Position numbers and translations under genes: made by a program | The notes under the pieces: model-generated | What the model was told of the DNA's origin: nothing | The model's database searches: none | Seen by the model: the letters and a program-made list of their open reading frames with translations, nothing else | Assembly (NCBI RefSeq): GCF_000829375.1 | Contig: NZ_AP014624.1 | Location: 1,798,001 to 1,862,000, forward strand | Direction: 5' to 3' | DNA from: Chryseobacterium sp. StRB126 | GTDB lineage: Bacteria > Bacteroidota > Bacteroidia > Flavobacteriales > Weeksellaceae | DNA length: 64,000 nucleotides | Part shown: piece by piece, positions 2-61,686 of the stretch | Numbering within the stretch: position 1 is the stretch's first letter | Layout of the letters: each line of letters opens with the position of its first letter

Positions 2-174
2 GGGATATGAGATTCGGGGTACGAGTTATGAAATGTTGGAATATCAGGAGTTAAAACTGTAATCATCCAATAATTTCCTTTTTCAACCCCTTTGTCTATC
101 ATCTATCTGTCTATTAGCTTTTCGTTTTATGTCTTCCATTATCATAATTATTCATCATTAATTACTCATTACTC
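2..174. repeat. Degenerate heptamer arrays with two inverted arms
   Basis: This gene-free stretch fills the left edge of the window. Bases 2-36 read as five consecutive 7-mers of the type GRGWTAY (for example GAGATTC, GGGGTAC). Bases 94-107 and 147-174 read as 7-mers of the opposite-strand type (GTCTATC, ATCTATC; then ATTATTC, ATTACTC). The last heptamer ends at 174, directly against the ATG at 175. The two arms are purine-rich and pyrimidine-rich and so could pair as a long imperfect hairpin. The left arm may continue outside the window. Confidence 0.55.
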
Positions 175-1281
175 ATGGTCAGCGTCTGGGAACAGGAAAC
201 CTTTTACCGTAAAAGAGATATCATCATCATTGGAGCCGGATTCTCCGGGCTTTGGACGGCTATTTCCATTAAGGAGAAGTTTCCTGAGAAATCCGTATTG
301 ATTATTGAAAGAAATGCTGTTCCATTAGGGGCTTCCACCCGAAATGCCGGCTTTGCCTGCTTTGGAAGCCTTACAGAGGTCATTGCTGATTCCCGGAAAA
401 TGGGTTGGGAAAAAACATTGGATCTTGTTAAAATGAGATTCGAAGGGCTTCAAAAGATCAAACAGTATTTTAAAAACGATGAAATAGATTTTGAACTCAT
501 CGGCGGTTACGAAATTCTGAATAATAATGAACCCTTGCTGCACATAAAGGAAGTGAATGAAAAGCTGAAATCCATTACCGGACTTGAAGAAACCTATTCT
601 CTGCAACAGAATAAAATAAAAGAATTTGGGCTGGGTAAATCTCAGTTTCTAATTGAGAATCCATGTGAAGGAAGCCTGCATTCCGGAAAACTGTTGCAAA
701 AGCTTATGGAGAAATGCTACGAGTTGAAGGTTGAGTTTTTGTTGGGAACTGAAGTGAAAAATATAGAAGAAACCTCTGATAAGGTGAATATCTACTTTTC
801 AGAGGGAACTTCTGTAAAAACCGATCAGTTAATCTATTGCACCAATGCATTCAGTTCAAAATTCATGGAGAATGAAAATATAATTCCTGCCAGAGGTCAG
901 ATTCTCCTTACGGAACCTATAGAAAATTTAAAATTGAAAGGAACTTTCCATTATGATGAGGGTTTTTATTATTTTAGAAACCTAGGAAACCGTGTATTGC
1001 TAGGCGGTGGAAGAAATCAGGATTTTAAAACTGAAGAAACTACAGCTTTTGAAACCACAGAGTTTCTGCAACATCACTTAGAAAATTTCCTACAGGAAGT
1101 TATTCTGCCCAATCAGGAATTTAAGATTGCGCTACGCTGGTCGGGAATTATGGCGATGGGAAATGAAAAAACACCAATTGTAAAAAGACTTTCAGAAAGA
1201 CAGCTTTGTGCTGTACGACTTTCCGGAATGGGAGTGGCATTGGCCCCTAAAGTTGGTGAGATGATTACCATTATGATTTAA
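175..1281 (+). CDS. FAD-dependent oxidoreductase of the DAO (D-amino-acid oxidase-like) family
   Basis: A 368-residue protein of the DAO family, which oxidises amines or amino acids with FAD. The Rossmann FAD motif GAGFSG lies at residues 20-25 after a short leader starting MVSVWEQE. It is followed by a family-typical run in which the conserved E (IIERN, about residue 45) would bind the ribose, and a C-terminal glycine-rich FAD segment (LSGMGVALAPKVGE, about residues 350-363). No signal peptide is present, so it is cytoplasmic. The ATG at 175 directly follows a heptamer array; no earlier start exists in frame and the N-terminus resembles that of related proteins. The next gene starts 5 nt after the stop, so the two are probably co-transcribed. 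The substrate cannot be read from sequence. Confidence 0.85.
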   Translation: MVSVWEQETFYRKRDIIIIGAGFSGLWTAISIKEKFPEKSVLIIERNAVPLGASTRNAGFACFGSLTEVIADSRKMGWEKTLDLVKMRFEGLQKIKQYFKNDEIDFELIGGYEILNNNEPLLHIKEVNEKLKSITGLEETYSLQQNKIKEFGLGKSQFLIENPCEGSLHSGKLLQKLMEKCYELKVEFLLGTEVKNIEETSDKVNIYFSEGTSVKTDQLIYCTNAFSSKFMENENIIPARGQILLTEPIENLKLKGTFHYDEGFYYFRNLGNRVLLGGGRNQDFKTEETTAFETTEFLQHHLENFLQEVILPNQEFKIALRWSGIMAMGNEKTPIVKRLSERQLCAVRLSGMGVALAPKVGEMITIMI

Positions 1282-1286
1282 ATACA

Positions 1287-1778
1287 ATGAAATATTTACC
1301 TTTTGAACGTATTACTTACAGGACAGATTTATCCCAACAGGAAATAATAAAAAGTCTTTCAGATGTTGTTGAACCGAAAAAATTCAGCTTTGGAAGAAAC
1401 CCTATCAAAGATTATGAAGGTTCTGTGGATACTGACGGTTTTGATATCAGCAGAGTCATCAATTACAGAAATTCATTTTTGCCTCAGATATACGGAACCA
1501 TTCAAAACAATAATTATGGAACAGAAATTCAGGTGACTATGAGCTTGAATGGATTTGTATTTCTCTTTACAATAGCATGGTGTTTAATGGCGACCTTTTC
1601 ATTTGTTATTGTATTGATGAAAGGAATAAGAGACAAAGAAATAACCGTTGAATTTTTTATTCCCCTAATAATGCTGTTATTTGTGTATGGGCTAACTATG
1701 ATATGCTTCAAAATAGAAAGCAAAAAATCAAAAGAATATCTGAAAAAAATTTTTGAAGCAGAAATAACTAAAGAATAA
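1287..1778 (+). CDS. Hypothetical protein with two membrane segments
   Basis: A 163-residue protein I do not recognise. A soluble N-terminal half of about 88 residues is followed by two hydrophobic segments (about residues 89-111 and 124-142) and a charged lysine-rich tail. This suggests a membrane-anchored protein with both ends on the same side. It starts 5 nt after the oxidoreductase stop, which implies co-transcription but does not give a function. Codon use looks like that of its neighbours. A shadow reading frame on the other strand (1529-1834) has no family resemblance and was rejected. Confidence 0.65.
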   Translation: MKYLPFERITYRTDLSQQEIIKSLSDVVEPKKFSFGRNPIKDYEGSVDTDGFDISRVINYRNSFLPQIYGTIQNNNYGTEIQVTMSLNGFVFLFTIAWCLMATFSFVIVLMKGIRDKEITVEFFIPLIMLLFVYGLTMICFKIESKKSKEYLKKIFEAEITKE

Positions 1779-1794
1779 AATAGAAGAAACAAAG

Positions 1795-1947
1795 AGATAA
1801 TAGATGAGGAGAGGATAGAAAAATAAGTTAACAATTAATATCTCCTAATTCAAATTTTGTACTTGTATCTATAATTTCAATCCTGCTAAGCCGTATTTCG
1901 TATACCGAAACCTTGCATCCTGAAACCTTGTATCCCATTTCTATCCT
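1795..1947. repeat. Heptamer array spacer between the membrane protein gene and prfB
   Basis: Bases 1795-1815 are purine heptamers (AGATAAT, AGATGAG, GAGAGGA). Bases 1893-1947 are pyrimidine-rich heptamers (GTATTTC, GTATACC and similar), including a 15-base unit (GAAACCTT plus a GYATCCY word) that occurs twice in tandem at 1907-1936. The arms are again inverted relative to each other. No ORF is seen here. Confidence 0.55.
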
Positions 1948-1981
1948 AGAAAAAGAGCTTTCCACTCTAAAAGAAATCCCT

Positions 1982-1989
1982 TATTTTTG
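1982..1989 (+). promoter_or_regulatory. Bacteroidota -7 element (TAnnTTTG) for prfB
   Basis: TATTTTTG matches the Bacteroidota -7 consensus exactly. No clear TTG is found 17-23 nt upstream. Transcription would start near 1994-1997, downstream of the TTG codon at 1987, so it supports the GTG at 2005 as the start of prfB. Confidence 0.5.
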
Positions 1990-2004
1990 CAAAAAGAAAA
2001 AATC

Positions 2005-3117
2005 GTGATAAACAACGACCAGATAAAAGAAGCTCAATCCAGAATTGAAGACTTACACAGATATTTACAGATTGAAAAAAAGAAGATCGAAATTGCCAAT
2101 GATGATGAAAAGACAGCGGCTCCTGAGTTTTGGGATAACCCTAAGACTGCAGAAGCTTTCCTGAAACAGCTTCGTTCCAAGAAAAAATGGGTGGAAAGCT
2201 ATGATGAAATTCACACCCAATTTGAAGACCTGCAGGTATTGGTTGACTTTGCTAAAGAAGATCCCGATTCCGAAAAAGAACTGGATGAAACATTCCCGCA
2301 GCTGGTAGAAAAAATAGAAGACCTTGAATTCAAGAATATGCTTTCCAATGAAGGGGATGAGTTGTCTGCAGTTCTTCAGATCACTGCCGGAGCCGGAGGA
2401 ACAGAAAGTTGTGACTGGGCATCCATGTTGATGAGAATGTACACCATGTGGGCAGAAAAACAGGGCTATAAGATTCGTGAACTGAACTTTCAGGAAGGAG
2501 ATGTAGCCGGCGTTAAAACTGTTACCCTTGAGATAGAAGGTGAATTTGCCTTTGGATATTTAAGAGGTGAAAACGGAGTTCACAGATTGGTAAGAATTTC
2601 ACCTTTTGATTCGAATGCAAAACGTCATACCAGCTTTGTTTCCGTGTATGTTTATCCTTTAGTAGATGATACGATCGAAATTAATATTAACCCTGCTGAT
2701 ATATCCTTTGAAACGATGAGGTCTTCCGGAGCCGGAGGGCAGAATGTAAACAAGGTAGAAACAGCAGTACGTCTTCGTCACGCACCTACCGGAATTATCA
2801 TAGAAAATTCAGAATCCCGTTCTCAGCTTCAGAACAAAGAAAAAGCAATGCAGCTCTTACGTTCCAGATTATATGAAATGGAATTGGAAGAACGTATGAA
2901 GGCCAGAAATGAGATTGAAGCCAACAAAATGAAAATCGAGTGGGGAAGCCAGATCAGAAACTACGTGATGCACCCTTACAAATTGGTAAAAGATGTACGC
3001 TCAGGCCATGAGACCTCGGATGTGGATGCTGTAATGAACGGAAATCTGACTCCTTTCCTTAAAGCATTCCTGATGGCCGATGGTACCGCAGTTTCCGATG
3101 ATGATCTCGACCTATAA
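2005..3117 (+). CDS. prfB: Peptide chain release factor 2
   Basis: RF2 recognises UGA and UAA stop codons and triggers hydrolysis of peptidyl-tRNA on the ribosome. The SPF tripeptide that reads the stop codon is at residues 199-201 and the catalytic GGQ at 244-246 (counted from the GTG at 2005). The length of 370 residues is normal for the family. Most bacterial prfB genes carry an in-frame UGA near codon 25 and need a programmed +1 frameshift. Here the corresponding region ([10 protein letters not shown]) is open in one frame, so autoregulation by frameshifting is absent. An in-frame TTG at 1987 would add six residues, but it lies inside the promoter motif, so I prefer the GTG at 2005. It appears monocistronic. 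Confidence 0.93.
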
Positions 3118-3157
3118 ATATTATTTGAAATTTTAGTTAAAATCTTATAATTAATTT

Positions 3158-3186
3158 TTGTTTCAGACATTTTAGACTTACTTTTG
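3158..3186 (+). promoter_or_regulatory. Promoter of the DedA gene
   Basis: TTG at 3158-3160, 18 nt spacer, TACTTTTG at 3179-3186. This fits the flavobacterial consensus and places the transcript start 10-15 nt before the ATG at 3203. Confidence 0.6.
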
Positions 3187-3202
3187 TTGTTCATCGATAT
3201 AT

Positions 3203-3898
3203 ATGGAAGATTTCAATAGCTGGAAGGATTTATTAAACCCGGAGTTTTATATTAAAATGGGAGGGTTTTGGCTTATTTTATTTATTGTGTTTGCTGAAAC
3301 AGGTCTTTTTGTAGGGTTTTTCCTACCCGGAGATTCACTATTATTCGTTTCGGGAATTTATGCCGTTGAAATCATCAAAGAGACGTTTGGATCCACAGGA
3401 AGTGATTTCTTAGATACAACGATCCTTGCCTCCGGAGTAGCACTGGCTGCCATTATAGGAAATGAAGTAGGATATTATTTTGGAAGAAAAACAGGTCCTG
3501 CTTTGTACAAAAGACCGGATTCAATGCTTTTCAAGAAGAAATATCTTTATCAGGCACATGATTTCTTTGAAAAACACGGTGCGCTGGCAATCATTATGGC
3601 AAGATTCTTACCTGTTGTGAGAACCTTTACTCCAATTGTTGCAGGGATTGTGAAGATGGATAAAAAAGAATTCCTAAGAGATAACGTTATTGGAGCAGTT
3701 CTATGGTCATTTATTTTGATCTTTGCGGGACATTACCTTGATAAACTTTTCATGGAGCAGTTTAATATTAATCTGAAAGAAAAGTTAGAATACATTATCA
3801 TTGTCATTGTATTGGTAACAACACTGCCAGTGATTATTAAGTTTATGTTCGGAAAAAAAGAAGACTTTTCTAAATACGAAAACAAAGATTTTGAATAG
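3203..3898 (+). CDS. DedA family membrane protein
   Basis: A 231-residue inner-membrane protein of the DedA/VTT family, whose members are linked to lipid scrambling or flipping and to membrane homeostasis. Family marks are the re-entrant motif region FAETGLFVGFFLPGD (about residues 28-42), GNEVGYYFGRKTGP (about 89-102) and the conserved ARFLPVVRTFTPIVAG (about 134-149). Several hydrophobic segments include one near the C-terminus (about 197-215) followed by a short charged tail. It has its own promoter and a strong terminator, so it is probably monocistronic. The exact lipid substrate is not known for this subfamily. Confidence 0.88.
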   Translation: MEDFNSWKDLLNPEFYIKMGGFWLILFIVFAETGLFVGFFLPGDSLLFVSGIYAVEIIKETFGSTGSDFLDTTILASGVALAAIIGNEVGYYFGRKTGPALYKRPDSMLFKKKYLYQAHDFFEKHGALAIIMARFLPVVRTFTPIVAGIVKMDKKEFLRDNVIGAVLWSFILIFAGHYLDKLFMEQFNINLKEKLEYIIIVIVLVTTLPVIIKFMFGKKEDFSKYENKDFE

Positions 3899-3921
3899 AA
3901 TTCAAATCCGCTAAAATATAT

Positions 3922-3953
3922 AAAGGCTGTCTCCTCTTGAGATAGCCTTTTTT
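3922..3953 (+). terminator. Rho-independent terminator of the DedA gene
   Basis: Stem AAAGGCTGTCTC / GAGATAGCCTTT with a 5-nt loop, followed by a T run. Its core (GGCTGTCTC) recurs at both ends of the insertion sequence at 8.5-10.1 kb. Confidence 0.8.
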
Positions 3954-3955
3954 AT

Positions 3956-3999: not shown

Positions 4000-4039
4000 G
4001 AAACTTTTATATAAATTTAGTTTTATAGGAATAAATAGA

Positions 4040-4909: not shown

Positions 4910-4913
4910 GTAT

Positions 4914-11232: not shown

Positions 11233-11319
11233 ATAATTGATTGTTGATAAATGATAAAAGATATTGTAAAGCTAATAAGTGAAACATTCATCAATTATCA
11301 CTCATCATTTATCATTTAT
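11233..11319. repeat. Inverted heptamer arrays between grpE and dnaJ
   Basis: Left arm 11233-11260: four 7-mers of the type ATWRWWG (ATAATTG, ATAAATG and so on). Right arm 11285-11319: five 7-mers of the type CANTYAT (CATTTAT twice). Reverse-complementing the right arm gives ATAAATG, ATAATTG words, the same as the left arm, so the spacer can fold into a long imperfect stem around a 24-nt centre. The grpE-dnaJ transcript, if continuous, would carry it. Confidence 0.65.
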
Positions 11320-11861: not shown

Positions 11862-11889
11862 AATTCAATATTTATTTACTCAATTGTTT

Positions 11890-11907
11890 GACAAAGACTC
11901 TGCCAAA
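11890..11907 (-). promoter_or_regulatory. Sigma-54-like motif upstream of grpE
   Basis: On the minus strand TTTGGCAG-AGTCT-TTGTC is close to the sigma-54 consensus TGGCAC-N5-TTGC, ending 28 nt before the grpE ATG. No consensus TAnnTTTG is present. The match is imperfect at two conserved bases. Confidence 0.35.
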
Positions 11908-12004
11908 GGAAAAAACAGGACATTAAGGCAGAAAAATGATAGTGATTATATTGAACGGATACAAAACTACAGACGTAATAACATCATTATTTATTATTCA
12001 TGAT

Positions 12005-12048: not shown

Positions 12049-12118
12049 CTCTACCTCCTTTGAACTCTCACATCCCTGAGCTGGAATCTCGTATCCCGCA
12101 CTCAATTACTGCTCTCCC
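12049..12118. repeat. Heptamer array at the 3' end of mntH
   Basis: Consecutive 7-mers such as GAATCTC, GTATCCC share the word type seen at 1-36 (complement), 1893-1936 and 52645-52672. The array runs into the last codons of mntH. Confidence 0.5.
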
Positions 12119-13443
12119 ATAAACGTCTGATACAACAGATATACATTTAAAACAATGATAATAATGGAAATAATCCATACACAAATCTTTAAGAAGGGCT
12201 TGTTTACAAATTCACCCATTTTAGCCTTATCATTGGTAAACATTACGAGCGGAACTACAGCAAAACTTAGCTGCATAGATAAAATAACCTGACTTAAAAC
12301 CAATAATTCTGTGGTTCCCTGTTCTCCGTAAAGGATCGCAACAATTAACGCAGGAATAACGGCAATAAGCCTCGTGATAAGTCTTCGTAGCCACGGTTTT
12401 AATTTAATATTTAAAAACCCTTCCATCACGATTTGACCTGCTAAAGTTCCTGTAAGGGTTGAGTTTTGTCCGGAAGCCAATAATGCGATCGCAAATGCAA
12501 CACTTGCCATTGATGCTCCTAAAATAGGAGTTAGCATCTGATAAGCATCGTGAATGTCAGCTACATGCTGATTTCCTGTAGTATGAAAGGTAGCCGCAGC
12601 CAGAATTAAAATAGCCGCATTGATAAAAAATGCCAGCATCAAAGATACTGTACTATCTAAAGTTGCAAATTTGATGGCCTCTTTCTTACCTTCTGTATCA
12701 CGGGTATAATCTCTTGTCTGTACAATACTGCTGTGAAGATACAAATTGTGTGGCATCACGGTAGCCCCCAAAATACCAATGGCGATATAAAGCATGGCCG
12801 GATTCTGAATAATTTCTTTTTGTGGAACCAACCCACCAAGAATTTCATTAAAAGCAGGTTTGGAAATAACAATTTCATACGCAAAGCAGGCAAGAATTAT
12901 AAAAATAAGTCCACCTACAATACTTTCAATCCATCGGAATCCCTTTGCCTGAAGGAGAAGAATCACCAATACATCTACGGTCGTAATCACAATACCCCAA
13001 GTGAGAGGAATATGAAACAACAGGTTTAAAGCAATTGCGGAACCGATGACTTCGGCAAGATCACAGGCGGCAATGGCTATTTCGCAGAATACCCAGAGAA
13101 TGAAATTAGTGGTAGGGCTGAAGTGGTCTCTACAGGCTTGTGCCAAGTCTCTTTCAGCTACGACTCCCAACTTAACAGATAAATGCTGTAAAACTACCGC
13201 AAAAATATTGGAAATAAGGATTACGGAAAGGAGGGTATACCCAAATTGAGCCCCTCCGGCAATATCAGTAGCCCAGTTTCCAGGATCCATATAGCCTACA
13301 GCAATCATTAGCCCGGGTCCTGCAAAGGCTAGATATTTTCTCCAAAAACTGGCATTTTTTGGTACTTTAATAGAAGAATAAACTTCTGATAAAGAGTGTG
13401 ATGTTTTATCTTTTCGCCAGGCGCTTTTTAAATTGAAATTCAT
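12106..13443 (-). CDS. mntH: Nramp family divalent metal transporter
   Basis: A 445-residue proton-coupled Mn2+/Fe2+ importer of the inner membrane. The metal-site motif DPGNW in TM1 is at 53-57 (Asp53, Asn56), and the TM6 motif MPHNLYLHS is present, giving the Met and Ala/His neighbourhood expected for Nramp. About eleven hydrophobic segments fit the family. A consensus promoter lies upstream. No MntR or Fur box could be identified by eye. It stands alone between grpE and the OmpA-domain gene, separated from each by clear spacers. Confidence 0.93.
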   Translation of the reverse strand: MNFNLKSAWRKDKTSHSLSEVYSSIKVPKNASFWRKYLAFAGPGLMIAVGYMDPGNWATDIAGGAQFGYTLLSVILISNIFAVVLQHLSVKLGVVAERDLAQACRDHFSPTTNFILWVFCEIAIAACDLAEVIGSAIALNLLFHIPLTWGIVITTVDVLVILLLQAKGFRWIESIVGGLIFIILACFAYEIVISKPAFNEILGGLVPQKEIIQNPAMLYIAIGILGATVMPHNLYLHSSIVQTRDYTRDTEGKKEAIKFATLDSTVSLMLAFFINAAILILAAATFHTTGNQHVADIHDAYQMLTPILGASMASVAFAIALLASGQNSTLTGTLAGQIVMEGFLNIKLKPWLRRLITRLIAVIPALIVAILYGEQGTTELLVLSQVILSMQLSFAVVPLVMFTNDKAKMGEFVNKPFLKICVWIISIIIIVLNVYLLYQTFMGEQ

Positions 13444-16620: not shown

Positions 16621-17712
16621 ATGAAAAGAAATATACATAAAAATTTGCTTGGTTTGCTAAAATCCAAAGGGATATTAGCAATATCAGGTGGATTGTTGCT
16701 TATGTCTTGTGGTGCTCAGATGGGAGGGTATAGCGAGACGGATGGGGTATATTATGACCCTAATAAGGATACGCTGCCGGAAGGAGTAATCATTAATGGT
16801 GGCGGAAACAGAGTAGGAGACTACTACGACTACTATCAGGATTCTAATGTGATTCAAAATGCACAGACGAATTCCAGAGAACAACAAAATAAATATAACG
16901 ATTGGAGTGATGTAAATGCCAATTGGGGAAATGCTACAAACTCTGATTGGGGAATGTATGCAGGTTCTCAAACCAATTACTATGACAATTCCTGGGGATC
17001 TCCTTGGGGTTGGTATGGAGGATATAATCCATATTGGGGCTGGAACCGTGGCTGGGGCTGGGGTGCAGGTCTTTCATGGGGTTGGGGCGGATCCTTCGGT
17101 TGGGGCTGGGGTGGCTCTATCGGCTGGGGAAGCCCATGGGGATATTCTCCTTATTGGGGCGGATATTATGATCCGTTCTGGGGCGGGTATTATGGTAATC
17201 CATACTGGGGCTACGGAGGTGGCTACTGGGGTGGTTATAACAGACCTTACAGAAGAAGCGGTACAGATAATGGATTCCGTAATTCAGGTATAAATAATGC
17301 CGTATATAGAACCAATACAGCCAGAACCAATAACGGATTTAGAAATAGTTCTGGTGGAGGATTTAGAACTGACAACTCTGGTGGGTTTAGAAATGGAAAT
17401 TCCGGTGGATTTAGAAATGATAACTCTGGTGGCTTCAGAAATGGAAACTCCGGCGGATTTAGAAACGGAAATTCAAATGGTGGTTTCAGAAATGAAAGTT
17501 CAGGTGGATTCCGTAATTCTACTCCTCCACAACAGCCAAGATACAACAATGGCGGTTTTAGATCCGGTGATTCCGGAGGTTTTAGAAACAGTGGCGGATT
17601 TAATAATAATTCCGGTGGTGGTTTCAGATCTGGTGGTTCATCAGGCGGTGGCGGCTTTAGAGGCGGTTCATCCGGTGGTGGCGGTGGATTTAGGTCCGGT
17701 GGCTTCAGATAA
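16621..17712 (+). CDS. Surface lipoprotein with Gly/Trp-rich and Gly-Phe-Arg repeats
   Basis: A 363-residue low-complexity protein. The N-terminus has a hydrophobic stretch ending LLLMSC (Cys30), a lipobox. Residues about 120-210 are rich in Gly, Trp, Tyr and Pro (WGWG, YWGGY motifs). From about 240 to the end it is built of 8-residue units of the form SGGFRNxN, ending in Gly-rich SGGGGFR tracts. Such composition predicts a disordered, sticky chain rather than an enzyme. Genes of this kind are often mislabelled because they sit next to proS. It is 33 nt upstream of a FadL-like porin and probably co-transcribed. The role is unknown; surface adhesion or envelope structure is a guess. Confidence 0.75.
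   Translation: MKRNIHKNLLGLLKSKGILAISGGLLLMSCGAQMGGYSETDGVYYDPNKDTLPEGVIINGGGNRVGDYYDYYQDSNVIQNAQTNSREQQNKYNDWSDVNANWGNATNSDWGMYAGSQTNYYDNSWGSPWGWYGGYNPYWGWNRGWGWGAGLSWGWGGSFGWGWGGSIGWGSPWGYSPYWGGYYDPFWGGYYGNPYWGYGGGYWGGYNRPYRRSGTDNGFRNSGINNAVYRTNTARTNNGFRNSSGGGFRTDNSGGFRNGNSGGFRNDNSGGFRNGNSGGFRNGNSNGGFRNESSGGFRNSTPPQQPRYNNGGFRSGDSGGFRNSGGFNNNSGGGFRSGGSSGGGGFRGGSSGGGGGFRSGGFR
17341..17560 (+). repeat. 24-nt tandem coding repeats
   Basis: In-frame repeats encoding SGGFRN plus two variable residues, about six to seven copies with synonymous drift. They form the C-terminal low-complexity region of the lipoprotein. Confidence 0.7.
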
Positions 17713-27447: not shown

Positions 27448-27468
27448 ATTATTCATTACTCATCATTA
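27448..27468. repeat. Three heptamers ending at the bestrophin stop codon
   Basis: ATTATTC, ATTACTC and a third related 7-mer in tandem. The same two words occur at 147-174 in front of the first gene. The array ends with the minus-strand stop codon (27466-27468). Confidence 0.45.
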
Positions 27469-28497
27469 GACAAGGACTCCGTTTTTAGATGCAATTGGAT
27501 CAGGAAGATCTCTTTCTCCCATCATTTGAAGAAGATCAATTTCAATAGTTCGGCAGATGGAAAGCATGGGAACGTCAAACATTAGTCCTGCAAAAGGATT
27601 TTCTGAATAGTCTCCTACTAATTCCATAATAATATAGATCCATCCGATAATAATACAGAAAGGAATAGAGGTCCAGATTCCCCAATCTCCGAGCTTAGCA
27701 AACTCATTCACAAGTCCTAAGGGAAGGAGGGTAATGAAAAGGATATTAAAGACAAATGCTGTACTGGCAAACTGTCTTGGCGAAGGAAATTTTTTAATTC
27801 TTTCTGCCTGTCCCTGAAAACCATAAAACTCATTCAGACTGTTTTGTAGCTGGGTCTGATTGAAATCTGTGATGGCATTCATGTTTTTTAACTCATTAAT
27901 ATCTTTAGCCTGTTGTGAGATCAGGTAGGTCGCAAAATTTTTATATTCACTTTTCAACTCATATTCTTCTTCTGAAAGATATTTATGTAAGAAAATAGGA
28001 GCTCTTCCGTAATCTGGAAAACCTGCTTTAATCAATCTGTTTCTTCTGAGATTGATATTCCCGAATTTATTATTTTCACTACTGATATGCTCCCATTCTG
28101 CTGGTACCAAAAGTTGTTCACGAAATGTATAGAGCCATGCAATATGACGGTTAATGATCTTTTTCTTACGATCTTCAAGATCAAAAATACCTATTTCTTC
28201 ATTTTTAGTATCAAAAGCCTGTACCATGGAAGCAAATGAACGGCTAGAGTTTACAATTCCGCCCCATATTTTCCTGGCTTCCCAAAGCCGGTCATAAGCT
28301 TGGTTATTTTTAAAACCTACTAAGAAGGCTTCTGCAGTACCAATCAATGCTACGGGAACCCATGGGATGGTCATCCAGTGCCAGTTAAAGAAATAGAAAA
28401 AGACAGCAATCAGAGTGCACCAGATAGAGATTAAGATAAGATGTATACCGGATAGATTGAGAACCTGTTTATAATTGACGTATTTTGTAGTGATCAT
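27466..28497 (-). CDS. Bestrophin family ion channel
   Basis: A 343-residue membrane protein of the bestrophin (UPF0187) family, which forms pentameric anion or cation channels. Hydrophobic segments lie in the first third (LILISIWCTLIAVFFYF and WVPVALIGTAEAFLVGF) and near the C-terminal third (FVFNILFITLLPLGLV, IPFCIIIGWIYIIMELV). NQAYDRLWEARKIWGGIVN is the family's conserved cytoplasmic motif, and the GDYSENPFAG motif follows the last segment. The frame extends 14 codons further upstream, but the ATG at 28497 gives the family N-terminus (MITTKYVNYKQVL). Regulation and ion selectivity are not evident. Confidence 0.88.
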   Translation of the reverse strand: MITTKYVNYKQVLNLSGIHLILISIWCTLIAVFFYFFNWHWMTIPWVPVALIGTAEAFLVGFKNNQAYDRLWEARKIWGGIVNSSRSFASMVQAFDTKNEEIGIFDLEDRKKKIINRHIAWLYTFREQLLVPAEWEHISSENNKFGNINLRRNRLIKAGFPDYGRAPIFLHKYLSEEEYELKSEYKNFATYLISQQAKDINELKNMNAITDFNQTQLQNSLNEFYGFQGQAERIKKFPSPRQFASTAFVFNILFITLLPLGLVNEFAKLGDWGIWTSIPFCIIIGWIYIIMELVGDYSENPFAGLMFDVPMLSICRTIEIDLLQMMGERDLPDPIASKNGVLV

Positions 28498-28664
28498 AAA
28501 GAAAATTGTGTTTTTGTGTGCAGGCAAAATAAATACCAAACTTTAGGATGGGTTATCAGATAATGTCTGTTATAAATTCATGTTTTGGTTTTATTTAAGG
28601 GATAATGTTCTAAAATTGAGTTTGATAATATTAAATAAAAGTAATGAAAAAAAAGCATAAAAAA

Positions 28665-46108: not shown

Positions 46109-46136
46109 ATCTATCATTGATCACTTATTATCTATT
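46109..46136. repeat. Heptamer array ending at a stop codon
   Basis: Four 7-mers of the type AYYNATY (ATCTATC, ATTGATC and two more). The array runs into the stop codon of the small membrane protein (46135-46137). A shorter set (ATTAACT, AATATCT and one more) lies at 46318-46338 and ends at the stop of the K+ channel gene. Confidence 0.45.
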
Positions 46137-52403: not shown

Positions 52404-52770
52404 GATTTTTTAAATAATTTATAAATAAATCTAAATATAAGCATTTTTTTTAATTGTATACATCTGAATCTGATAATTGGAGATAAGTTGAATGTGTACC
52501 ATAACAAATTCTGTGTAAAAGCGCTCTGGAAGCCGTAAAAACGGATTATCTAAATCTTTCTATAGCAGAATGCCTCTTCATTATTAACAGGTCTTATTAA
52601 CCACCTAACATCTGTTTTATAAGGCATCAATATCACAAAATCAAGAATCCCGAACCCCGCATCCAGAATCTCTCCCATCTCCCTTTCCATCAGTATTTTC
52701 CCTACTTTTAATTTATTTTTTCAGATTTGCTTAAAAAGTGTAAATTTACGGCTATCTAATTATTTTTTTT
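52404..52770. other. Divergent spacer with a heptamer array
   Basis: Between the acyl-CoA ligase and dehydrogenase genes. Bases 52645-52672 are four 7-mers of the type GNAYCYM (GAATCCC, GAACCCC and two more), continuing in pyrimidine-rich sequence to about 52690. A weak -7 element for the ligase (TATATTTA, minus strand) lies at about 52430, and TAAATTTA at 52741-52748 may serve the dehydrogenase. No ORF is seen. Confidence 0.45.
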
Positions 52771-53910
52771 ATGGACTTTAATTTATCTGAAGAACAGCTG
52801 ATGATTCAGCAGGCGGCAAGAGACTTTGCACAGAACGAACTATTACCTGGAGTTATTGAAAGAGACCGCGACCAGAAATTCCCTGTTGAGCAGGTGAAGA
52901 AAATGGGAGAAATGGGCCTTTTAGGAATGATGGTGGATCCTAAATACGGTGGTGCAGGTATGGACAGTGTTTCTTACGTGCTGGCAATGGAAGAGATTGC
53001 AAAAGTAGATGCTTCTGCAGCGGTTGTAATGTCTGTAAACAATTCATTGGTTTGTGCTGGTTTGGAAAAATTTGCTTCTGAAGAGCAAAAAGTAAAATAT
53101 CTTACTCCTCTTGCAAGCGGACAGGTTATCGGAGCATTCGCTTTATCTGAGCCGGAAGCTGGTTCTGATGCTACTTCTCAGAAAACAACTGCTGAAGACA
53201 AAGGAGATTACTATCTTTTAAACGGAATCAAAAACTGGATCACCAACGGAGGTACAGCTACTTATTATATCGTAATTGCACAAACAGATCCTGAGAAAAA
53301 ACACAAAGGAATTAATGCCTTTATTGTAGAAAGAGGATGGGAAGGTTTTGAAGTAGGAGTAAAAGAAGATAAACTGGGAATCAGAGGAAGTGATACACAC
53401 TCTTTGATCTTCAACAACGTAAAAGTTCCTAAAGAAAACAGAATTGGTGCAGACGGGTTTGGTTTCAATTTTGCAATGGCTGTATTGAACGGTGGTAGAA
53501 TCGGTATTGCTTCTCAGGCATTAGGAATTGCTTCAGGAGCTTATGAATTAGCTCTGAAATATGCTAAAACAAGAAAAGCTTTCAAAACTGAGATTATCAA
53601 CCACCAGGCTATCGCATTCAAATTAGCAGATATGGCTACTCAGATTACTGCTGCAAGAATGTTATGTTTCAAGGCAGCTTGTGAGAAAGATGCAGGACAA
53701 GATATCTCTGAAAGCGGAGCTATGGCAAAATTATACTCTTCTCAGGTAGCAATGGATACTACTATTGAAGCAGTGCAGATTCACGGTGGATACGGATATG
53801 TGAAAGAATACCATGTAGAAAGATTAATGAGAGATGCAAAAATCACTCAGATCTACGAAGGAACTTCTGAAATCCAGAAAATTGTGATCTCAAGAAGTAT
53901 CGCAAAATAA
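52771..53910 (+). CDS. Acyl-CoA dehydrogenase
   Basis: A 379-residue FAD enzyme that oxidises acyl-CoA to trans-2-enoyl-CoA. Signature 1 (GAFALSEPEAGSDATS, about residues 124-139), the WITNGG strand, and signature 2 near the C-terminus are present; the catalytic glutamate lies in QIYEGTSEIQ (about 366-374), the position used by short-chain and butyryl-CoA dehydrogenases. Helical N- and C-terminal domains are complete. Electron acceptor would be ETF, not in this window. A small membrane-anchored protein gene follows after 22 nt. Codon use is that of a well-expressed gene (few rare codons). Confidence 0.93.
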   Translation: MDFNLSEEQLMIQQAARDFAQNELLPGVIERDRDQKFPVEQVKKMGEMGLLGMMVDPKYGGAGMDSVSYVLAMEEIAKVDASAAVVMSVNNSLVCAGLEKFASEEQKVKYLTPLASGQVIGAFALSEPEAGSDATSQKTTAEDKGDYYLLNGIKNWITNGGTATYYIVIAQTDPEKKHKGINAFIVERGWEGFEVGVKEDKLGIRGSDTHSLIFNNVKVPKENRIGADGFGFNFAMAVLNGGRIGIASQALGIASGAYELALKYAKTRKAFKTEIINHQAIAFKLADMATQITAARMLCFKAACEKDAGQDISESGAMAKLYSSQVAMDTTIEAVQIHGGYGYVKEYHVERLMRDAKITQIYEGTSEIQKIVISRSIAK

Positions 53911-54607: not shown

Positions 54608-55552
54608 ATGAAAATTTTATCTCTATTGCTTCTTTTTGGAGCAGTAATACACGTTACTTCCCAAGTGGGAATCAATACGCCTCAACCTACTGAAACATTA
54701 GACGTTAACGGCTCAGTACGTATACGAAACATTAAAGAAACAGCACCTAATGCTTCTGCAAAAGATTCTATTGTTGTATTTGATAAGGGGGGTGTTCTTA
54801 AAAGAGCAACGGCTTTACAGATTATTACTCAGGGTAATGGATTAACTTCTGTAGTGACAGCAAGCCCGTTAACGGGAAACGGAACAGCTTCTAATCCGGT
54901 TATTCTTGGGCAGAATGGTGCGTCCAACGGACAGTTACTTCAATGGAACGGCACAACATGGATCCCTGTTTCACCATCTGCTTTGGGAAGTATAGCATTA
55001 ACCCTTGGAACTTCAGGTAATGATATCAACATCTTAAATTCACCTGCTTCTTTAGGAGAAAGTATAAGACTCAATGTACCGGATGCAAGTACCACAGCAA
55101 GGGGAGTGGTTACTACAAGCAATCAGTCGTTTACAGGAACAAAAATGTTTTCAGCTGTGGGGATAAACACTTCCACACCTAATGCATCTTCACGACTGGA
55201 TGTTAATGGTACTTTTAAGTTGGGAAGTACCGGAACAGTTAATAAAAATGTGATTAATTTTTCAACATCGGTCAATAATTCGATCAGCAGCGGAGATTCA
55301 ACATTTTTAACCGGAGCTTTTAATTCCTCAGGGATTTTGGACGTCAATGTGACGATTCCAGCAGCAAATAGGCCAACTTCTACACAGGCCATAGTAAGTG
55401 TATCCCCGAATTTTGATTTGCCGGGAGCTGTATCAATAGCTTCAGCAAGACTTACTTCTCCTTCCAATGTAAGAATACGTTTTATGAATACAGATAGAAA
55501 TAATACGCAGACTATATCCGGAACCCTGTTTATTACCATCAGTGAATTTTAA
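54608..55552 (+). CDS. Secreted QVGINT-type surface protein (second of two)
   Basis: A 314-residue exported protein with signal peptide MKILSLLLLFGAVIHVTS (a further ATG lies one codon earlier at 54605). The mature part starts QVGINTPQPTETLDVNGSVRIRNI, of which the core QVGINT and LDVNGS words recur later as VGINTSTPNASSRLDVNG (about residues 185-202), an internal duplication. It is beta-rich, Ser/Thr/Asn-rich and has no enzyme motif, like phage-tail-fibre or head-domain repeats in other Bacteroidota surface proteins. No T9SS sorting domain. Its TAA stop is formed by the left terminal repeat of the 249-bp element. Confidence 0.72.
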   Translation: MKILSLLLLFGAVIHVTSQVGINTPQPTETLDVNGSVRIRNIKETAPNASAKDSIVVFDKGGVLKRATALQIITQGNGLTSVVTASPLTGNGTASNPVILGQNGASNGQLLQWNGTTWIPVSPSALGSIALTLGTSGNDINILNSPASLGESIRLNVPDASTTARGVVTTSNQSFTGTKMFSAVGINTSTPNASSRLDVNGTFKLGSTGTVNKNVINFSTSVNNSISSGDSTFLTGAFNSSGILDVNVTIPAANRPTSTQAIVSVSPNFDLPGAVSIASARLTSPSNVRIRFMNTDRNNTQTISGTLFITISEF

Positions 55553-55798
55553 TTAACCTGAGTTCGGGATAAGACATTTTTGCTTTTAGAAAGTAAGGAA
55601 GCCTGAAGCTGGAAGAGGAAAGTGAGTTGAGGTTAAAAAAACACTTACAACCCTGTAATGTATTATTCCTTTAAAGACTGCCTCATCAAATTTTACGGCA
55701 ACGTCAGAAATGGTAGTTCCGATAGTAACTTCCAGCCTCTCTCTTCCAGCTTCCAGTCTATTATCCTTAATTTTATGATCCCGAACTCGGGTTAATTA
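55550..55798. repeat. 249-bp inverted-repeat element with heptamer arms (MITE-like)
   Basis: Terminal inverted repeats at 55550-55570 and 55778-55798 match at 20 of 21 positions (ends TAATTAACC...TTCGGGAT). Inside each end is a 7-base-period array: GGAAGCC, TGAAGCT and more at 55597-55631, and ACTTCCA, GCTTCCA and more at 55728-55762, again inverted. The centre (55632-55727) is unique and non-coding. No transposase ORF. TA is present at both flanks and might be a target duplication. Confidence 0.7.
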
Positions 55799-55853
55799 GA
55801 TTTTTTTCCTATAAATTAATAAGATATTTTATCTGATATTGTTATTAATAAAA

Positions 55854-55877: not shown

Positions 55878-55882
55878 AAACT

Positions 55883-57131: not shown

Positions 57132-57136
57132 ATGCT

Positions 57137-57628: not shown

Positions 57629-59892
57629 AAAGAAAAATATTATTTCTGACAGCATTTGTAATGCTTTCAGGGACAGCATTTGCACAGAAGAATGTCTGGA
57701 ACAGAGCCTCGCAGAAAGAGGTGAAAGAAAAAAGAGAGAGGACGGTAAGGACTTCAGCTTATCAATTAGTGAACTTGAATATGGATGAACTCAAGCAGCA
57801 GTTGGCTTCTACCCATGACAGAAGCAGATCGGCTTCGGAAAAAGGTATTTTAATGAAATTTCCGGATGACAAAGGTGAATTTGATACTTATGAAGTTTAT
57901 GAAGCCTCTACAATGCATGATGACTTGCAGGCAAAATATTCTGATATAAAATCTTATGTGGGTAAAAAGGTTGGAGACCCTACGGTCAATATACGATTTT
58001 CCCTTGATCCATATTTCGGTTTGAATGCCGCGATCAGAAGTACAAAAGGAATATATTATATAGATTCTTATTCTTCTGATAACAAGATTTATATAGTATA
58101 TGATCGAAAAAATGCTGTTTCTTCCGGAAGATTTAGCTGTCTGTTCAATGAAGATATGGTCCAAAATAAACTGGCAGAATTGGGAGCAGAAAATAAAAAA
58201 ACTGTGGTTGACGGTTTAATGAGAAGATATAGACTGGCAATCACTACCACAACAGAATACACTGCATATACAGCGCAACAGGCAGGAGTAACAAACGGAA
58301 CAGATGCACAGAAAAGAGCTGCTGTACTGGCTGCTGTTAATTTGGTGATAGCCCGTGTTAACCAGGTATTTGAAAATGAAATTGCTGTTACCCTGCAGTT
58401 AATCCCTAATACGGATCAACTGTTTTTTATCACCACGGATACCTTTGATGATCTGGATGCAGATCAGATGATTAGCGAAAATGTTGTAGTAACCAATAAT
58501 ATAATTGGAGCTAATAATTATGATCTTGGACATCTTTTTTTTAAAGCAAGTCCGGGAAATGATAATGGATTGGCTCAAAGACCGGCAGTCTGCTCTACCC
58601 TTAAAGCTGAAGGAGTAACAGGATCCGCCAACCCGGTAGGAGATCCCTTCAGTATTGATTTTGTAGCTCATGAAATGGGACACCAGTTTGGAGCTAATCA
58701 TACCCAAAATAATAGTTGTAATAGGAATACTGCAACATCCGTTGAACCGGGAAGTGCAAGTACTATTATGGGATATGCCGGAATATGTGCACCTGACGTG
58801 CAATCGAATAGTGATGCTTATTTTCATGCAGTAAGTATACAGGAAATGTATAACTGGATTACCGGAGGTGGAAATTGTGGAGTTAATACAAACACAGGAA
58901 ATAATGAGCCTACCGCTAATGCTGGACCTGATAAAACTATTCCTATGGGAACGCCATTTGCTCTAACAGGAGTAGGAACAGATCCGGATGGTGATGCCAT
59001 TACTTATAACTGGGAACAAATAGATACTGGTGCTGCAACCATGCCGCCAAGACCAACAAATACCAGAGGTCCTTTGTTCCGTTCTTTATGGGCAGGAACA
59101 TCCCCAACAAGATATTTCCCAAAATTATCTACTATTGTTGCGGGTTATGATGCTACTATAATAGATGCGTTAAACCCATTGTCTTGGGAAAAACTTCCTT
59201 CAGTAGCCAGAGTACTTAATTTTTCATTAATGGTAAGAGATAATAATCCGGTAGGGGGACAAACTGCCCGTGATAATGTTACTTTAACGGTTTCTGCTGG
59301 TGCTGGACCGTTTATTGTTACTTCTCAAAATGCTGCAGGAGTTGTCTGGAATAAAGGACAATCTCAAACAATTACTTGGAATGTTGCCAATACTAATGCA
59401 GCACCAGTAAATACAGCTAATGTCACTATTCTACTTTCTACAGATGGAGGACTTACATTTCCTCACACATTGGTAGCCAGTACACCCAATAACGGATCTT
59501 ATACATTCAATGTTCCTCAAAATGTAAGTGAGACCTCAAATGCAAGGATTATGATTAAAGCGATTGATAATGTTTTCCTGAATGTTAATAGCATGAACTT
59601 TACGATTAGGGCAGGTTCCTTAGCAACAAAAGAAATTGAAAAAGCCGATGAAGGAGTTAAAATCTATCCAAATCCTTCCAAAGGAATATTTACCATTGAA
59701 ACAGAATCCCAAAATGGTATTTCGTATACTGTTTTTACTGTTGATGGAAGATTGGTGAATGCTGCAAAAGAAATCAAAGGTCAGAAAATTAAGGAAGAAG
59801 TTAATCTTTCATCTCTTCCTAACGGAGTATATGTAGTTCAGGTAGATAAAGATGGACAGAAAATTTCCAAGAAACTGATAATTAAAAAATAG
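57625..59892 (+). CDS. Secreted reprolysin-like metalloprotease with T9SS sorting domain
   Basis: A 755-residue secreted zinc protease. Signal peptide MKRKILFLTAFVMLSGTAFAQ; a propeptide of about 190 residues follows. The metzincin zinc site HEMGHQFGANH has His349, Glu350, His353, Gly356 and His359, and a Met-turn (STIMGY) lies downstream, as in M12B-like peptidases. A beta-sandwich (GTDPDGDAITYNWEQ) and a fibronectin-like module (about 560-660) precede the type A sorting domain (VKIYPNPSKGIFTIE and VYVVQVDKDGQKISKKL). It should degrade extracellular protein. It is translationally coupled to the upstream lipoprotein. Confidence 0.92.
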   Translation: MKRKILFLTAFVMLSGTAFAQKNVWNRASQKEVKEKRERTVRTSAYQLVNLNMDELKQQLASTHDRSRSASEKGILMKFPDDKGEFDTYEVYEASTMHDDLQAKYSDIKSYVGKKVGDPTVNIRFSLDPYFGLNAAIRSTKGIYYIDSYSSDNKIYIVYDRKNAVSSGRFSCLFNEDMVQNKLAELGAENKKTVVDGLMRRYRLAITTTTEYTAYTAQQAGVTNGTDAQKRAAVLAAVNLVIARVNQVFENEIAVTLQLIPNTDQLFFITTDTFDDLDADQMISENVVVTNNIIGANNYDLGHLFFKASPGNDNGLAQRPAVCSTLKAEGVTGSANPVGDPFSIDFVAHEMGHQFGANHTQNNSCNRNTATSVEPGSASTIMGYAGICAPDVQSNSDAYFHAVSIQEMYNWITGGGNCGVNTNTGNNEPTANAGPDKTIPMGTPFALTGVGTDPDGDAITYNWEQIDTGAATMPPRPTNTRGPLFRSLWAGTSPTRYFPKLSTIVAGYDATIIDALNPLSWEKLPSVARVLNFSLMVRDNNPVGGQTARDNVTLTVSAGAGPFIVTSQNAAGVVWNKGQSQTITWNVANTNAAPVNTANVTILLSTDGGLTFPHTLVASTPNNGSYTFNVPQNVSETSNARIMIKAIDNVFLNVNSMNFTIRAGSLATKEIEKADEGVKIYPNPSKGIFTIETESQNGISYTVFTVDGRLVNAAKEIKGQKIKEEVNLSSLPNGVYVVQVDKDGQKISKKLIIKK

Positions 59893-59913
59893 AATTTTAA
59901 GATTTTATTGTAA

Positions 59914-59950
59914 AAAGAAACCCGTTCTATACTTTGGAACGGGTTTCTTT
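59914..59950. terminator. Bidirectional terminator between the metalloprotease and prfC
   Basis: AAAGAAACCCGTTC and GAACGGGTTTCTTT form a perfect 14-bp stem around a 9-nt loop. Confidence 0.85.
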
Positions 59951-59973
59951 ATTTTTTATATAGAATGTAATTC

Positions 59974-61569
59974 TTAATTTTCTCTGAATTCACTGATAAA
60001 GTGAAGTTTCACATTCGGGAACTTCTCCTGTGTCATGTGAATGGTGAAAGAAGAGTCAGCTAAAAATACCAATTGATTGTATTTATCTCTGGCAAGGAAT
60101 CTTTGCTTTAATCTTGCAAACTCTTTAAACTCTTCAGATTTCTCATCAGCTTCTATCCAACAAGCTTTGTGCATTGAAAGCGGTTCATAAGTACATTTTG
60201 CCCCATATTCATGCTCCAGACGGTACTGAATAACCTCGTACTGAAGGGCTCCAACTGTTCCGATGATCTTTCTTCCGTTCATTTCTAACGTAAATAACTG
60301 GGCAACTCCTTCATCCATCAACTGATCGATACCTTTTGCCAATTGCTTAGCTTTAAGGGGATCATTGTTGTTGATATAACGGAAATGCTCCGGAGAGAAG
60401 CTTGGTATTCCTTTGAAGCTTAGCTTTTCACCCCCCGTTAAAGTATCACCAATTCTGAAACTTCCTGTGTCATGAAGACCAACAATATCACCTGGGAAAC
60501 TTTCTTCCACTACTTCTTTTTTATCAGCAAAGAAAGCATTCGGAGAAGAAAACTTCATTTTTTTACCTTCTCTTACCAATAGATAGTTTTCGTTTCTCTT
60601 GAATGTTCCTGAAACAATCTTTACGAAAGCTAATCTGTCTCTGTGCTTAGGATCCATGTTCGCATGAATCTTAAATACGAATCCTGTGAAAGTGCTTTCT
60701 TCAGGTTTTACTAAACGGGTATCACTTTCTTTAGGTTGTGGCATCGGAGCAATGTCGATGAATGCATCCAATAATTCACGAACTCCAAAATTATTCAAAG
60801 CAGAACCGAAGAAAACAGGTTGTAGATCGCCTTTCATATAATCTTCACGATTAAACTCAGGGTAAACAGACTGGATTAAATCAAGCTCTTCTCTTAAAGT
60901 AGTGGCAGCTTTTTCACCAATTACATCATCTATTGAAGTGTCATTAATATCATCAAACTTAATAGAATCTCCAACCTTTTGCTTTTTTTCTTCTAAAAAT
61001 AACTGAATATTGTCTTCCCAGATATTATAAATTCCCTGGAAGTCGTTTCCCATACCAATTGGTAAAGAAAGTGGGCAAACCGTTAATCCTAATTTCTGTT
61101 CTACTTCATCCAAAAGATCGAAGGCATCCTTACCTTCACGGTCAAGTTTATTAATGAATACCAGCATCGGAATATTTCTCATTCTACATACCTGAACCAG
61201 TTTTTCAGTTTGTTCCTCAACCCCTTTGGCAACGTCAATGACAACAATTACTGAATCTACGGCTGTTAAAGTTCTGTAAGTATCCTCAGCAAAGTCCTTG
61301 TGACCCGGAGTATCCAGAATGTTGATTTTATGGTCTCTATATTCAAATGCCAATACGGAAGTAGCTACAGAGATCCCTCTCTGTCTTTCAATTTCCATAA
61401 AGTCGGAAGTAGCTCCTTTTTTTATTTTGTTGGATTTTACCGCACCCGCTTCCTGGATTGCCCCCCCGAAAAGGAGTAGTTTTTCCGTAAGAGTAGTTTT
61501 TCCGGCATCCGGGTGGGAAATGATCCCGAAGGTCTTTCTTTTTTGTATTTCTTTGATTAAGTCTGACAT
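59974..61569 (-). CDS. prfC: Peptide chain release factor 3
   Basis: A 531-residue translational GTPase that removes RF1 or RF2 from the ribosome after termination. The P-loop SHPDAGKTT is at 18-26, the G3 motif DTPGHKDF and G4 NKLD follow, and RF3-specific signatures (EIERQRGISV, GGAIQEAGAVK) are present. Domains II and III occupy the C-terminal 250 residues. A variant promoter lies upstream. It is not adjacent to prfB in this window but both release factors are within 60 kb. Confidence 0.95.
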   Translation of the reverse strand: MSDLIKEIQKRKTFGIISHPDAGKTTLTEKLLLFGGAIQEAGAVKSNKIKKGATSDFMEIERQRGISVATSVLAFEYRDHKINILDTPGHKDFAEDTYRTLTAVDSVIVVIDVAKGVEEQTEKLVQVCRMRNIPMLVFINKLDREGKDAFDLLDEVEQKLGLTVCPLSLPIGMGNDFQGIYNIWEDNIQLFLEEKKQKVGDSIKFDDINDTSIDDVIGEKAATTLREELDLIQSVYPEFNREDYMKGDLQPVFFGSALNNFGVRELLDAFIDIAPMPQPKESDTRLVKPEESTFTGFVFKIHANMDPKHRDRLAFVKIVSGTFKRNENYLLVREGKKMKFSSPNAFFADKKEVVEESFPGDIVGLHDTGSFRIGDTLTGGEKLSFKGIPSFSPEHFRYINNNDPLKAKQLAKGIDQLMDEGVAQLFTLEMNGRKIIGTVGALQYEVIQYRLEHEYGAKCTYEPLSMHKACWIEADEKSEEFKEFARLKQRFLARDKYNQLVFLADSSFTIHMTQEKFPNVKLHFISEFREN

Positions 61570-61586
61570 ATCGTATTTTGAAGTTG

Positions 61587-61617
61587 CAAAAATCGTGATT
61601 TTTTACGAGGTTTTCAA
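61587..61617 (-). promoter_or_regulatory. Probable promoter of prfC
   Basis: Minus strand TTG (61617-61615), 20 nt, GATTTTTG (61594-61587); one mismatch to TAnnTTTG. Confidence 0.45.
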
Positions 61618-61658
61618 ATTTAAATTACTGGAATGTTGGTGGAGGAATCCGTCTTTTT

Positions 61659-61686
61659 GAGATTCGGGCTGAAAAGTCAGAGATAG
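61659..61686. repeat. Short heptamer array between prfC and the membrane protein gene
   Basis: Four 7-mers including GAGATTC and GAGATAG; GAGATTC also occurs at 9-15. Confidence 0.35.

Follow-up and report, generated by a model that had tools for sequence, protein, structure and literature searches.

Intergenic DNA of the flavobacterium Chryseobacterium sp. StRB126 holds a marked excess of arrays built from seven-nucleotide units (heptamers), and the G-bearing strand of these arrays mostly points away from the neighboring gene, whatever the repeated word. The arrays came to notice in a stretch of 64,000 nucleotides (the window; contig NZ_AP014624.1, positions 1,798,001-1,862,000 of a single-contig genome of 5,503,743 bp), for which a preliminary description had listed nine sites. 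Here we report their period, polarity, and words in this genome and its relatives, and weigh what may produce them.

A Seven-Nucleotide Period in Spacers

Our sample of the StRB126 genome (its own genome, G000) combines the window with 60 stretches, each of 20 kb and evenly spaced, or 1.264 Mb of 5.50 Mb, of which 198.8 kb is non-coding. Genes, including those of an Escherichia coli control, were called by a simple codon-score script rather than taken from annotation, and the gene mask used is the stricter of two versions (84% coding), as a first mask (71% coding) left a period-3 signal in "intergenic" DNA. At a segment score of at least 12, the non-coding sample contains 24 lag-7 segments compared with 0-5 at lags 3-6 and 8-13, and compared with a mean of 0.8 lag-7 segments in five dinucleotide shuffles of the same DNA. 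Harmonics are seen at lag 14 (21 segments) and lag 21 (18 segments), and the coding DNA of the sample has a single lag-7 segment. When spacers matching a mobile element described below are removed from the sampled genome, 22 lag-7 segments remain vs 2-9 at lags 4-6 and 8-13.

The same excess is seen in other members of the genus. In spacers of 30-800 bp from four genomes, with a score of at least 10 required, lag-7 segments occur at 1.72 per 10 kb in the own genome, 2.88 in G059, 1.60 in G013, and 4.25 in G002; the other lags (4-6, 8-13) reach at most 1.0 per 10 kb (0-0.8 in G013). Period 14 is raised along with period 7 in the four genomes. Among 80 named relatives, a set consisting mostly of the same spacers repeated across species, 88 of 1,043 spacers have a lag-7 segment vs 1-14 at any other lag in the 4-13 range, and 48 remain after removal of grpE-dnaJ. 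The 7-nt excess in spacers is real, and it is an excess over periods 5, 6, 8, and 9, the comparison on which the preliminary description had staked its claim.

Polarity Relative to Gene Borders

Over 1,297 spacers of the four genomes, grpE-dnaJ being omitted, 56 contain a total of 64 arrays. By orientation these are 46 of the 867 co-directional spacers, seven of 219 divergent spacers, and three of 211 convergent ones, with co-directional DNA enriched in arrays (p = 0.0035, array counts). Leaving out 12 unskewed arrays, those with more G than C (G-type) are divided between the left and right halves of their spacers 21:1, and those with more C than G (C-type) 4:26 (Fisher p = 1.6e-9). Arrays of periods 4-6 and 8-13 have no polarity (12:5 and 19:16, 25 unskewed, p = 0.37). 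Once grpE-dnaJ is included, there are 54 skewed arrays, and for 49 of them the closer gene is the one that lies 5' of the G-bearing strand, mean distances on the two sides being 58 and 222 nt (medians 13 and 160). Agreement is found in each genome (by half-spacer, 19/22 in G000, 11/12 in G059, 6/7 in G013, 13/13 in G002), after spacers matching the mobile element are dropped (47/51), in spacers resembling another sampled spacer (14/16), and in arrays without a GG dinucleotide (23:3). Array-free spacers show the same skew weakly (co-directional, +0.02 to -0.12 from left to right).

The order of arrays within a spacer follows the same rule. In the four genomes we counted G-type before C-type (GC) 14 times, GGC once, GG twice, CC once, and CG never; in the 80 relatives GC was counted 52 times, with one CG and one GCG. 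Adding the relatives gives co-directional counts of 48:9 and 7:42, in a set that repeats the same spacers across many species. As the polarity flips inside one spacer, the replication strand is excluded as its source.

Loci found by word rather than by period, using three tandem copies of GNAYCYC, (GNAYCYC)x3, as a pattern, fit the polarity at 14 of 19 usable loci in the own genome (30 tried; 11 inside open reading frames [ORFs], several overlapping), at 16 of 18 usable loci taken one per other genome of the genus (30 tried; ten in ORFs, two lacking a gene on one side), and at 14 of 17 usable loci in six further genomes (30 tried; 13 inside ORFs, some overlapping). Among these six, G127 gave 2/5, and the four outside the family gave 8/8 usable of 20. 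In the window, where sites had been chosen without knowledge of the rule and were split into segments afterwards, 12 of 13 segments fit (sign test, 0.0034), or 11 of 13 if a 52-codon ORF beside 46109-46136 is no gene; the clear exception is 61659-61686.

Words and Period Are Uncoupled

The (GNAYCYC)x3 pattern covers the GAATCTC and GTATCCC sites of the window. At up to three mismatches it has 61+49 matches in the own genome vs 12+12 for the reversed pattern, which served as control. Over 118 genomes of the genus, matches per genome range from 0 to 263 (reversed pattern, 0-10), with G059 the richest (263 at up to two mismatches) and G013 among the poorest (one match). At up to one mismatch, 21 of 100 genomes in a family set and 16 of 198 in a class set have a match, the own genome and other genus members being counted in both. 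Some class genomes match the reversed control instead, such as G353 (10+17), which would fit the presence of other heptamer words there. Since the lag-7 excess is found in G013 although GNAYCYC is nearly absent from it, period and these words are uncoupled, and the proposal that words change while the period stays is borne out.

We found no universal 7-nt motif, judging by eye. The sole protein family searched, Y1_Tnp (repetitive extragenic palindrome [REP]-associated tyrosine transposase, or RAYT), is without a match in 14 of the 118 genomes, no correlation coefficient having been computed, and gave no match in the array-rich genomes G065 (67 pattern matches), G116 (35), G068 (28), and G054 (16). 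A RAYT driver as a requirement is ruled out by such genomes, and the idea of a protein reading DNA at 7-nt steps, also raised for the window, is not supported, either by this family or by a common motif. Y1_Tnp presence does not account for the 0-263 spread of GNAYCYC matches within the genus.

The Spacers on Either Side of grpE

The window encodes a GrpE 98% identical to that of Chryseobacterium jejuense, and 79 of the 80 named relatives yielded a grpE-dnaJ spacer. By eye, nearly all of these are hairpins with 7-periodic arms, L227 being an exception. Rough string rules place the 80 sequences, window included, into word classes of 48, 18, and 14. Judged from these sequences, words differ between clades while position, predicted pairing, and period are kept. 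In class 1 (44 unique sequences, predicted 14-pair stem) there are 61 G-U cells, 42 of them in one column, and two A-C cells, an imbalance that favors pairing in RNA, with G-U on one side of a pair tolerated. In class 2, RNAalifold gives two-sided change in two of seven pairs on an alignment that is poor because the string rule placed some class-1 spacers in class 2.

The spacer between grpE and the adjoining Nramp gene, found in 77 relatives and examined in 30, changes wholesale between close species. In one neighboring pair (L167 and L169), the array has a common inner end and differs internally. In L193, L195, L203, and L168, this spacer contains, upstream of grpE, a repeated unit (GTGAATGGTCAATAGTCAATTTTTGCTTCGCAAA..) about 100 nt long. 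Beside the fast-changing spacer, a promoter-like stretch at 11862-11940 of the window (TTTGGCAGAGTCTTTGTCAAAC) is well conserved upstream of grpE in relatives.

A Mobile Element with Heptamer Arms

Judged by its copies, the site at 55597-55762 constitutes the arms of a ~245-bp miniature inverted-repeat transposable element (MITE). In a search of the whole own genome, made with 55545-55810 as the only query, 55549-55798 has 43 blast matches, the longer ones besides itself being 82-94% identical. Our alignment of 30 loci represents 29 distinct copies (two loci show one copy). These have no gene of their own; the ends are inverted repeats (TAACCTGAGTTCGGGATAA..), the flanks are AT-rich, and the arms are made of heptamers. 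The arms vary between copies by 7, 14, and 21 nt, with some 4-, 8-, and 15-nt gaps as well. The end pattern occurs 42+42 times in the genome at up to three mismatches vs 0+0 for its reversed control; target-site duplications were judged by eye only. Five pairs of MITE ends lie ~1035 bp apart in the own genome and are likely to mark a partner insertion sequence. One of these (L033 1319-2352; own genome 184777-185810) is a ~1.03-kb insertion sequence with ends common to the MITE, four further pairs having that size; of two pieces of it that were searched, one has a DDE transposase domain (PF13612), and its reading frames are disrupted.

The preliminary description held that the arrays do not descend from one repeat. 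This fails at 55597-55762, itself a copy of the MITE. A single repeat family is ruled out by the differing words of the arrays together with the fact that only nine sampled own-genome spacers match the MITE. Outside MITE spacers, 16 of 51 skewed arrays are in spacers that resemble another sampled spacer over at least 50 nt, which may reflect similarity of the arrays or further elements.

Sites in the Window

Each of the nine sites (Table 1) was compared with 1,000 dinucleotide shuffles on two measures, lag-7 identity and the best lag-7 or lag-14 segment. The resulting p-values, given in that order, are optimistic because the intervals had been picked by eye: 2-174 (0.001, 0.011), 1795-1947 (0.001, 0.35), 11233-11319 (0.001, 0.001), 12049-12118 (0.076, 0.60), 27448-27468 (0.013, 0.016), 46109-46136 (0.001, 0.13), 52645-52672 (0.001, 0.010), 55597-55762 (0.018, 0.002), and 61659-61686 (0.32, 1.0). 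Lag-7 identity thus supports seven of the nine proposed arrays, and five are supported by the two measures together. The evidence for 12049-12118 is marginal, and 61659-61686 does not pass. At 1795-1947, Tandem Repeats Finder (TRF) gives a period of 15, not 7. All sites do lie in spacers or run just into a gene end, as had been described, with 12049-12118 crossing the gene end at 12106 and 27448-27468 that at 27466. Nothing in the window reached the gathering score of an Rfam family; all 15 Rfam matches are rRNA and tRNA in L040 and L047.

Table 1. Heptamer Arrays and Associated Features, in Window Positions
Positions	Strand	Feature	Basis
2..30	+	G-type array of GRGRTNC words, directly 3' of a + ORF ending just before the window	Sequence; left ORF end in L012
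141..174	+	C-type array (ATTACTC, TCATTA words), ending where the + gene at 175 starts	
1795..1819	+	G-type part, 16 nt past the stop at 1778	
1907..1939	+	C-type part with a TRF period of 15 (8+7), 5' of a gene at 1987 for a release factor	
11237..11263	+	grpE-dnaJ spacer, arm of predicted hairpin, G-type on +, adjoining the dnaJ start	
11285..11319	+	grpE-dnaJ spacer, second arm of predicted hairpin, C-type on +, adjoining the grpE stop	
12049..12118	+	Degenerate C-type array that crosses the Nramp stop (gene at 12106-13443, -); periodicity is marginal	
27448..27468	+	Short C-type array at the stop of a bestrophin-family gene (27466-28539, -)	
46109..46136	+	Short C-type array just past the stop of a 52-codon - ORF (about 46292-46141), a presumed gene	
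52645..52672	+	GNAYCYC array, C-type, between divergent genes and closer to the + gene at 52771	
55549..55798	+	MITE copy, ~245 bp; heptamer arms inside, G-type about 55597-55625 and C-type about 55731-55762	
61659..61686	+	Claimed array; no periodicity above shuffles, and orientation contrary to the polarity rule	

Elsewhere in the own genome, L066 (3378-3416) and L069 (4691-4757 and 5691-5785) contain arrays, perfect or nearly so, in which the unit is ATCTTTT (at most 13 units) or ACTTTTT. Each follows a similar flank beginning GTTTAACG, and these are possible length-variable tracts. In the window, the ORF at 16621-17712 has internal 24- and 48-bp repeats at 17077-17510.

What May Maintain the Arrays

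Tandem-type indels in non-coding DNA between relatives number 12 at 7 nt, although some of these may be one event counted twice, vs five at 5 nt, five at 6 nt, one at 8 nt, and none at 9 nt. They support gain and loss by whole units, and to this extent fit the expansion suggested for the window. The account that we favor, with somewhat less than even confidence, combines microsatellite-like heptamer arrays with a word-independent filter at gene borders, acting most likely on transcripts. Arrays would grow and shrink by 7-nt units in non-coding DNA at gene borders, as the indels show in part. The filter would keep those whose outward strand is C-poor and G-bearing, a rule that is observed and whose cause we infer. 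It would probably act on transcripts, where C-poor RNA past a stop and G-poor RNA ahead of a start would be tolerated. Facing arrays could fold into a spacer hairpin, as predicted at grpE-dnaJ, an added use at some loci, and mobile elements bearing arrays, such as the MITE at 55.6 kb, would spread some of them.

Several observations weigh against this account. Tandem-type indels of 1, 2, 3, and 4 nt are commoner than those of 7 nt (413, 61, 16, and 13), so that slippage alone does not pick 7. Two-sided change is seen in none of the 14 pairs of the class-1 grpE-dnaJ stem, so the stem gives no evidence of covariation, and 30 array hairpins outside grpE-dnaJ lack the excess of G-U (30) over A-C (33) that RNA pairing would leave. 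The E. coli control has no segment at lags 4-14 and one at lag 15, in a set with little power (79 spacers, 15.3 kb). Finally, judged by eye, the polarity is also present away from translation starts and stops. Two rRNA-operon spacers (L040 7067-7148 and 7233-7307) are G-left/C-right by eye; these and two sites in L047 (10965-11046 and 11131-11205) are hairpin-like stretches built of heptamers, with AGATTTT and ATTTAAA words, among 16S, two tRNAs, and 23S. L003, L006, L019, L021, and L024 have mutually similar GNAYCYC arrays inside ORFs, perhaps encoding a linker, and this L006 family is also G-left/C-right by eye. Given these few rRNA-spacer and in-gene cases, translation starts and stops may not fully account for the polarity.

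The preliminary description had also named selection for hairpin RNA. If a stem in the operon transcript were selected, it would keep facing complementary arrays, and the polarity would be the order of the arms. We regard this as unlikely overall. Besides the class-1 G-U excess and the two-sided pairs of the poorly aligned class 2, facing arrays in 30 spacers with both types have a mean complementarity of 0.674 vs 0.532 for swaps (standard deviation, 0.057; top of 200 swaps, 0.703), and the rRNA-operon spacer arrays resemble hairpins. Complementarity of at least 0.8 is seen in 11 of these 30 spacers; the other 19 pairs fall below it, many with unrelated words, and yet, where a spacer has two arrays, the G-type one almost always precedes the C-type. 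The RNA-type excess is missing outside grpE-dnaJ, as noted, and non-array hairpins in co-directional spacers show no such arm polarity (GC:CG, 141:144 in the own genome and 127:181 in relatives). The suggestion thus keeps its footing at some spacers and not as a general rule.

Plain polymerase slippage favoring 7-nt units, with neither function nor filter, would give the period, the unit-sized indels, the variety of words, and the fast turnover of the Nramp-grpE spacer. It predicts neither polarity toward the nearest gene nor the kept position of the grpE-dnaJ arrays, and with the polarity already disfavoring it we consider it improbable. The polarity may instead come from a mutational process that is itself oriented, of which head-to-head end growth is the boldest version. 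Marginally harder to credit than plain slippage is such array growth on 3' ends at healed breaks, which would leave G-bearing 7-nt arrays head-to-head as in fused telomeres. One strand-symmetric rule of this kind fits co-directional, convergent, and divergent spacers and, by eye, the rRNA spacers and the in-gene case; the array order in the four genomes agrees with it, and words on the two sides of a spacer are often unrelated. Against it, words vary within one genome, no enzyme or template was found (none was searched for), the relatives include the CG and the GCG spacer, and the internal difference of L167 and L169, with its common inner end, is what slippage would give in this one pair.

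A broader proposal, about as improbable as plain slippage, is that one word-independent process, common to three or more phyla (PMC4692102 supplies two), deposits 7-nt repeats whose G-bearing strand extends outward from gene borders. If true, such spacers would look like head-to-head fused telomere-like tracts, produced by gene-border-oriented growth of DNA ends or by transcription-linked expansion. We know of no bacterium in which either mechanism has been described.

Arrays could instead be the arms of MITE- or REP-like elements, as at 55597-55762 and possibly in the 16 of 51 skewed arrays whose spacers resemble another. This is quite improbable as a general explanation, given how few sampled spacers match the MITE, how little the lag-7 count falls without them, and the array-rich genomes in which Y1_Tnp had no match. 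Loading of the termination factor Rho on C-rich, G-poor inward strands, stopping transcription that enters genes, would suit outward strands that are C-poor and inward strands that are C-rich at both gene ends; to our knowledge, cyanobacteria lack Rho. The polarity is also reported for the cyanobacterium Nostoc (PMC4692102), which makes this reading highly improbable. Least credible of all is that the arrays function as G-quadruplexes, a role considered in PMC4692102 for the GGGAATC repeats. In its favor, Xanthomonas and Nostoc share the polarity and spacing seen here; but only one of 54 arrays in our set could form three tetrads and nine of 54 two tetrads by simple pattern, and the polarity of arrays without GG shows that quadruplexes are not its general cause.

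Relation to Known Repeats

Among the literature matches listed, no title concerns Chryseobacterium heptamer arrays, most subscription journals being outside the coverage. REP elements and bacterial interspersed mosaic elements (BIMEs), which are associated with RAYT transposases, are dispersed hairpins in spacers. Unlike these, the arrays here have no single common sequence family and do not require a Y1_Tnp gene. The short tandemly repeated repetitive (STRR) sequences of heterocystous cyanobacteria are degenerate tandem heptamers in spacers. A Calothrix STRR heptanucleotide case is mentioned in PMC4692102.

The closest likeness is to the repeats described in two Xanthomonas (GGGAATC) and in Nostoc sp. 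PCC 7120 (GGGGA(T/C)T), whose function is left open in that account (PMC4692102). There, the G strand is closest to the gene on its 5' side whatever the direction of that gene, with Xanthomonas averages of 28 and 160 nt. As in Xanthomonas and Nostoc, the StRB126 arrays have units of 7 nt in which some positions are fixed and others free; most are intergenic, few lie between divergent genes, and the 7-nt excess and gene-border polarity are found here too. As in Xanthomonas, they lie mostly between co-directional genes and facing inverted pairs are common. Unlike in those bacteria, many unrelated and mostly AT-rich words occur per genome, few are capable of forming quadruplexes, and one class resides in a MITE. 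Locations are also reported to be more conserved there (PMC4692102), whereas turnover at the Nramp-grpE spacer is high.

Intergenic heptamers have likewise been reported as TAACTGA direct repeats in Beggiatoaceae, Cyanobacteria, and five Bacteroidetes, with heptamer assemblages in some Bacteroidetes, other heptamers being found alongside in Gramella, Aequorivita, and Elizabethkingia (PMC4679880). These differ in having one fixed word, which in Maribeggiatoa is mostly just 5' of the start codon, and no G-strand rule is stated in the abstract, the introduction, or the part on Cyanobacteria and Bacteroidetes. Both PMC4679880 and PMC4692102 cite Mrazek et al. 2007 for heptanucleotides being the commonest long repeat class in most genomes, with slippage suggested; the units are again 7 nt, and gene-border polarity is absent from the cited account. 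Why heptamers dominate among long bacterial microsatellites is posed as an open question in both papers.

The border rule itself is thus already published for G-rich heptamers of other bacteria (PMC4692102). What is new here, as far as the literature searched tells, is the variety of AT-rich words, a polarity that is separated both from quadruplexes and from arrays with other periods, and the finding that word and period are uncoupled between species. That the rule holds for AT-rich words without GG removes the quadruplex explanation for them and supplies a countable constraint for any mechanism, one that can be tested from public annotated genomes and with simple reporters.

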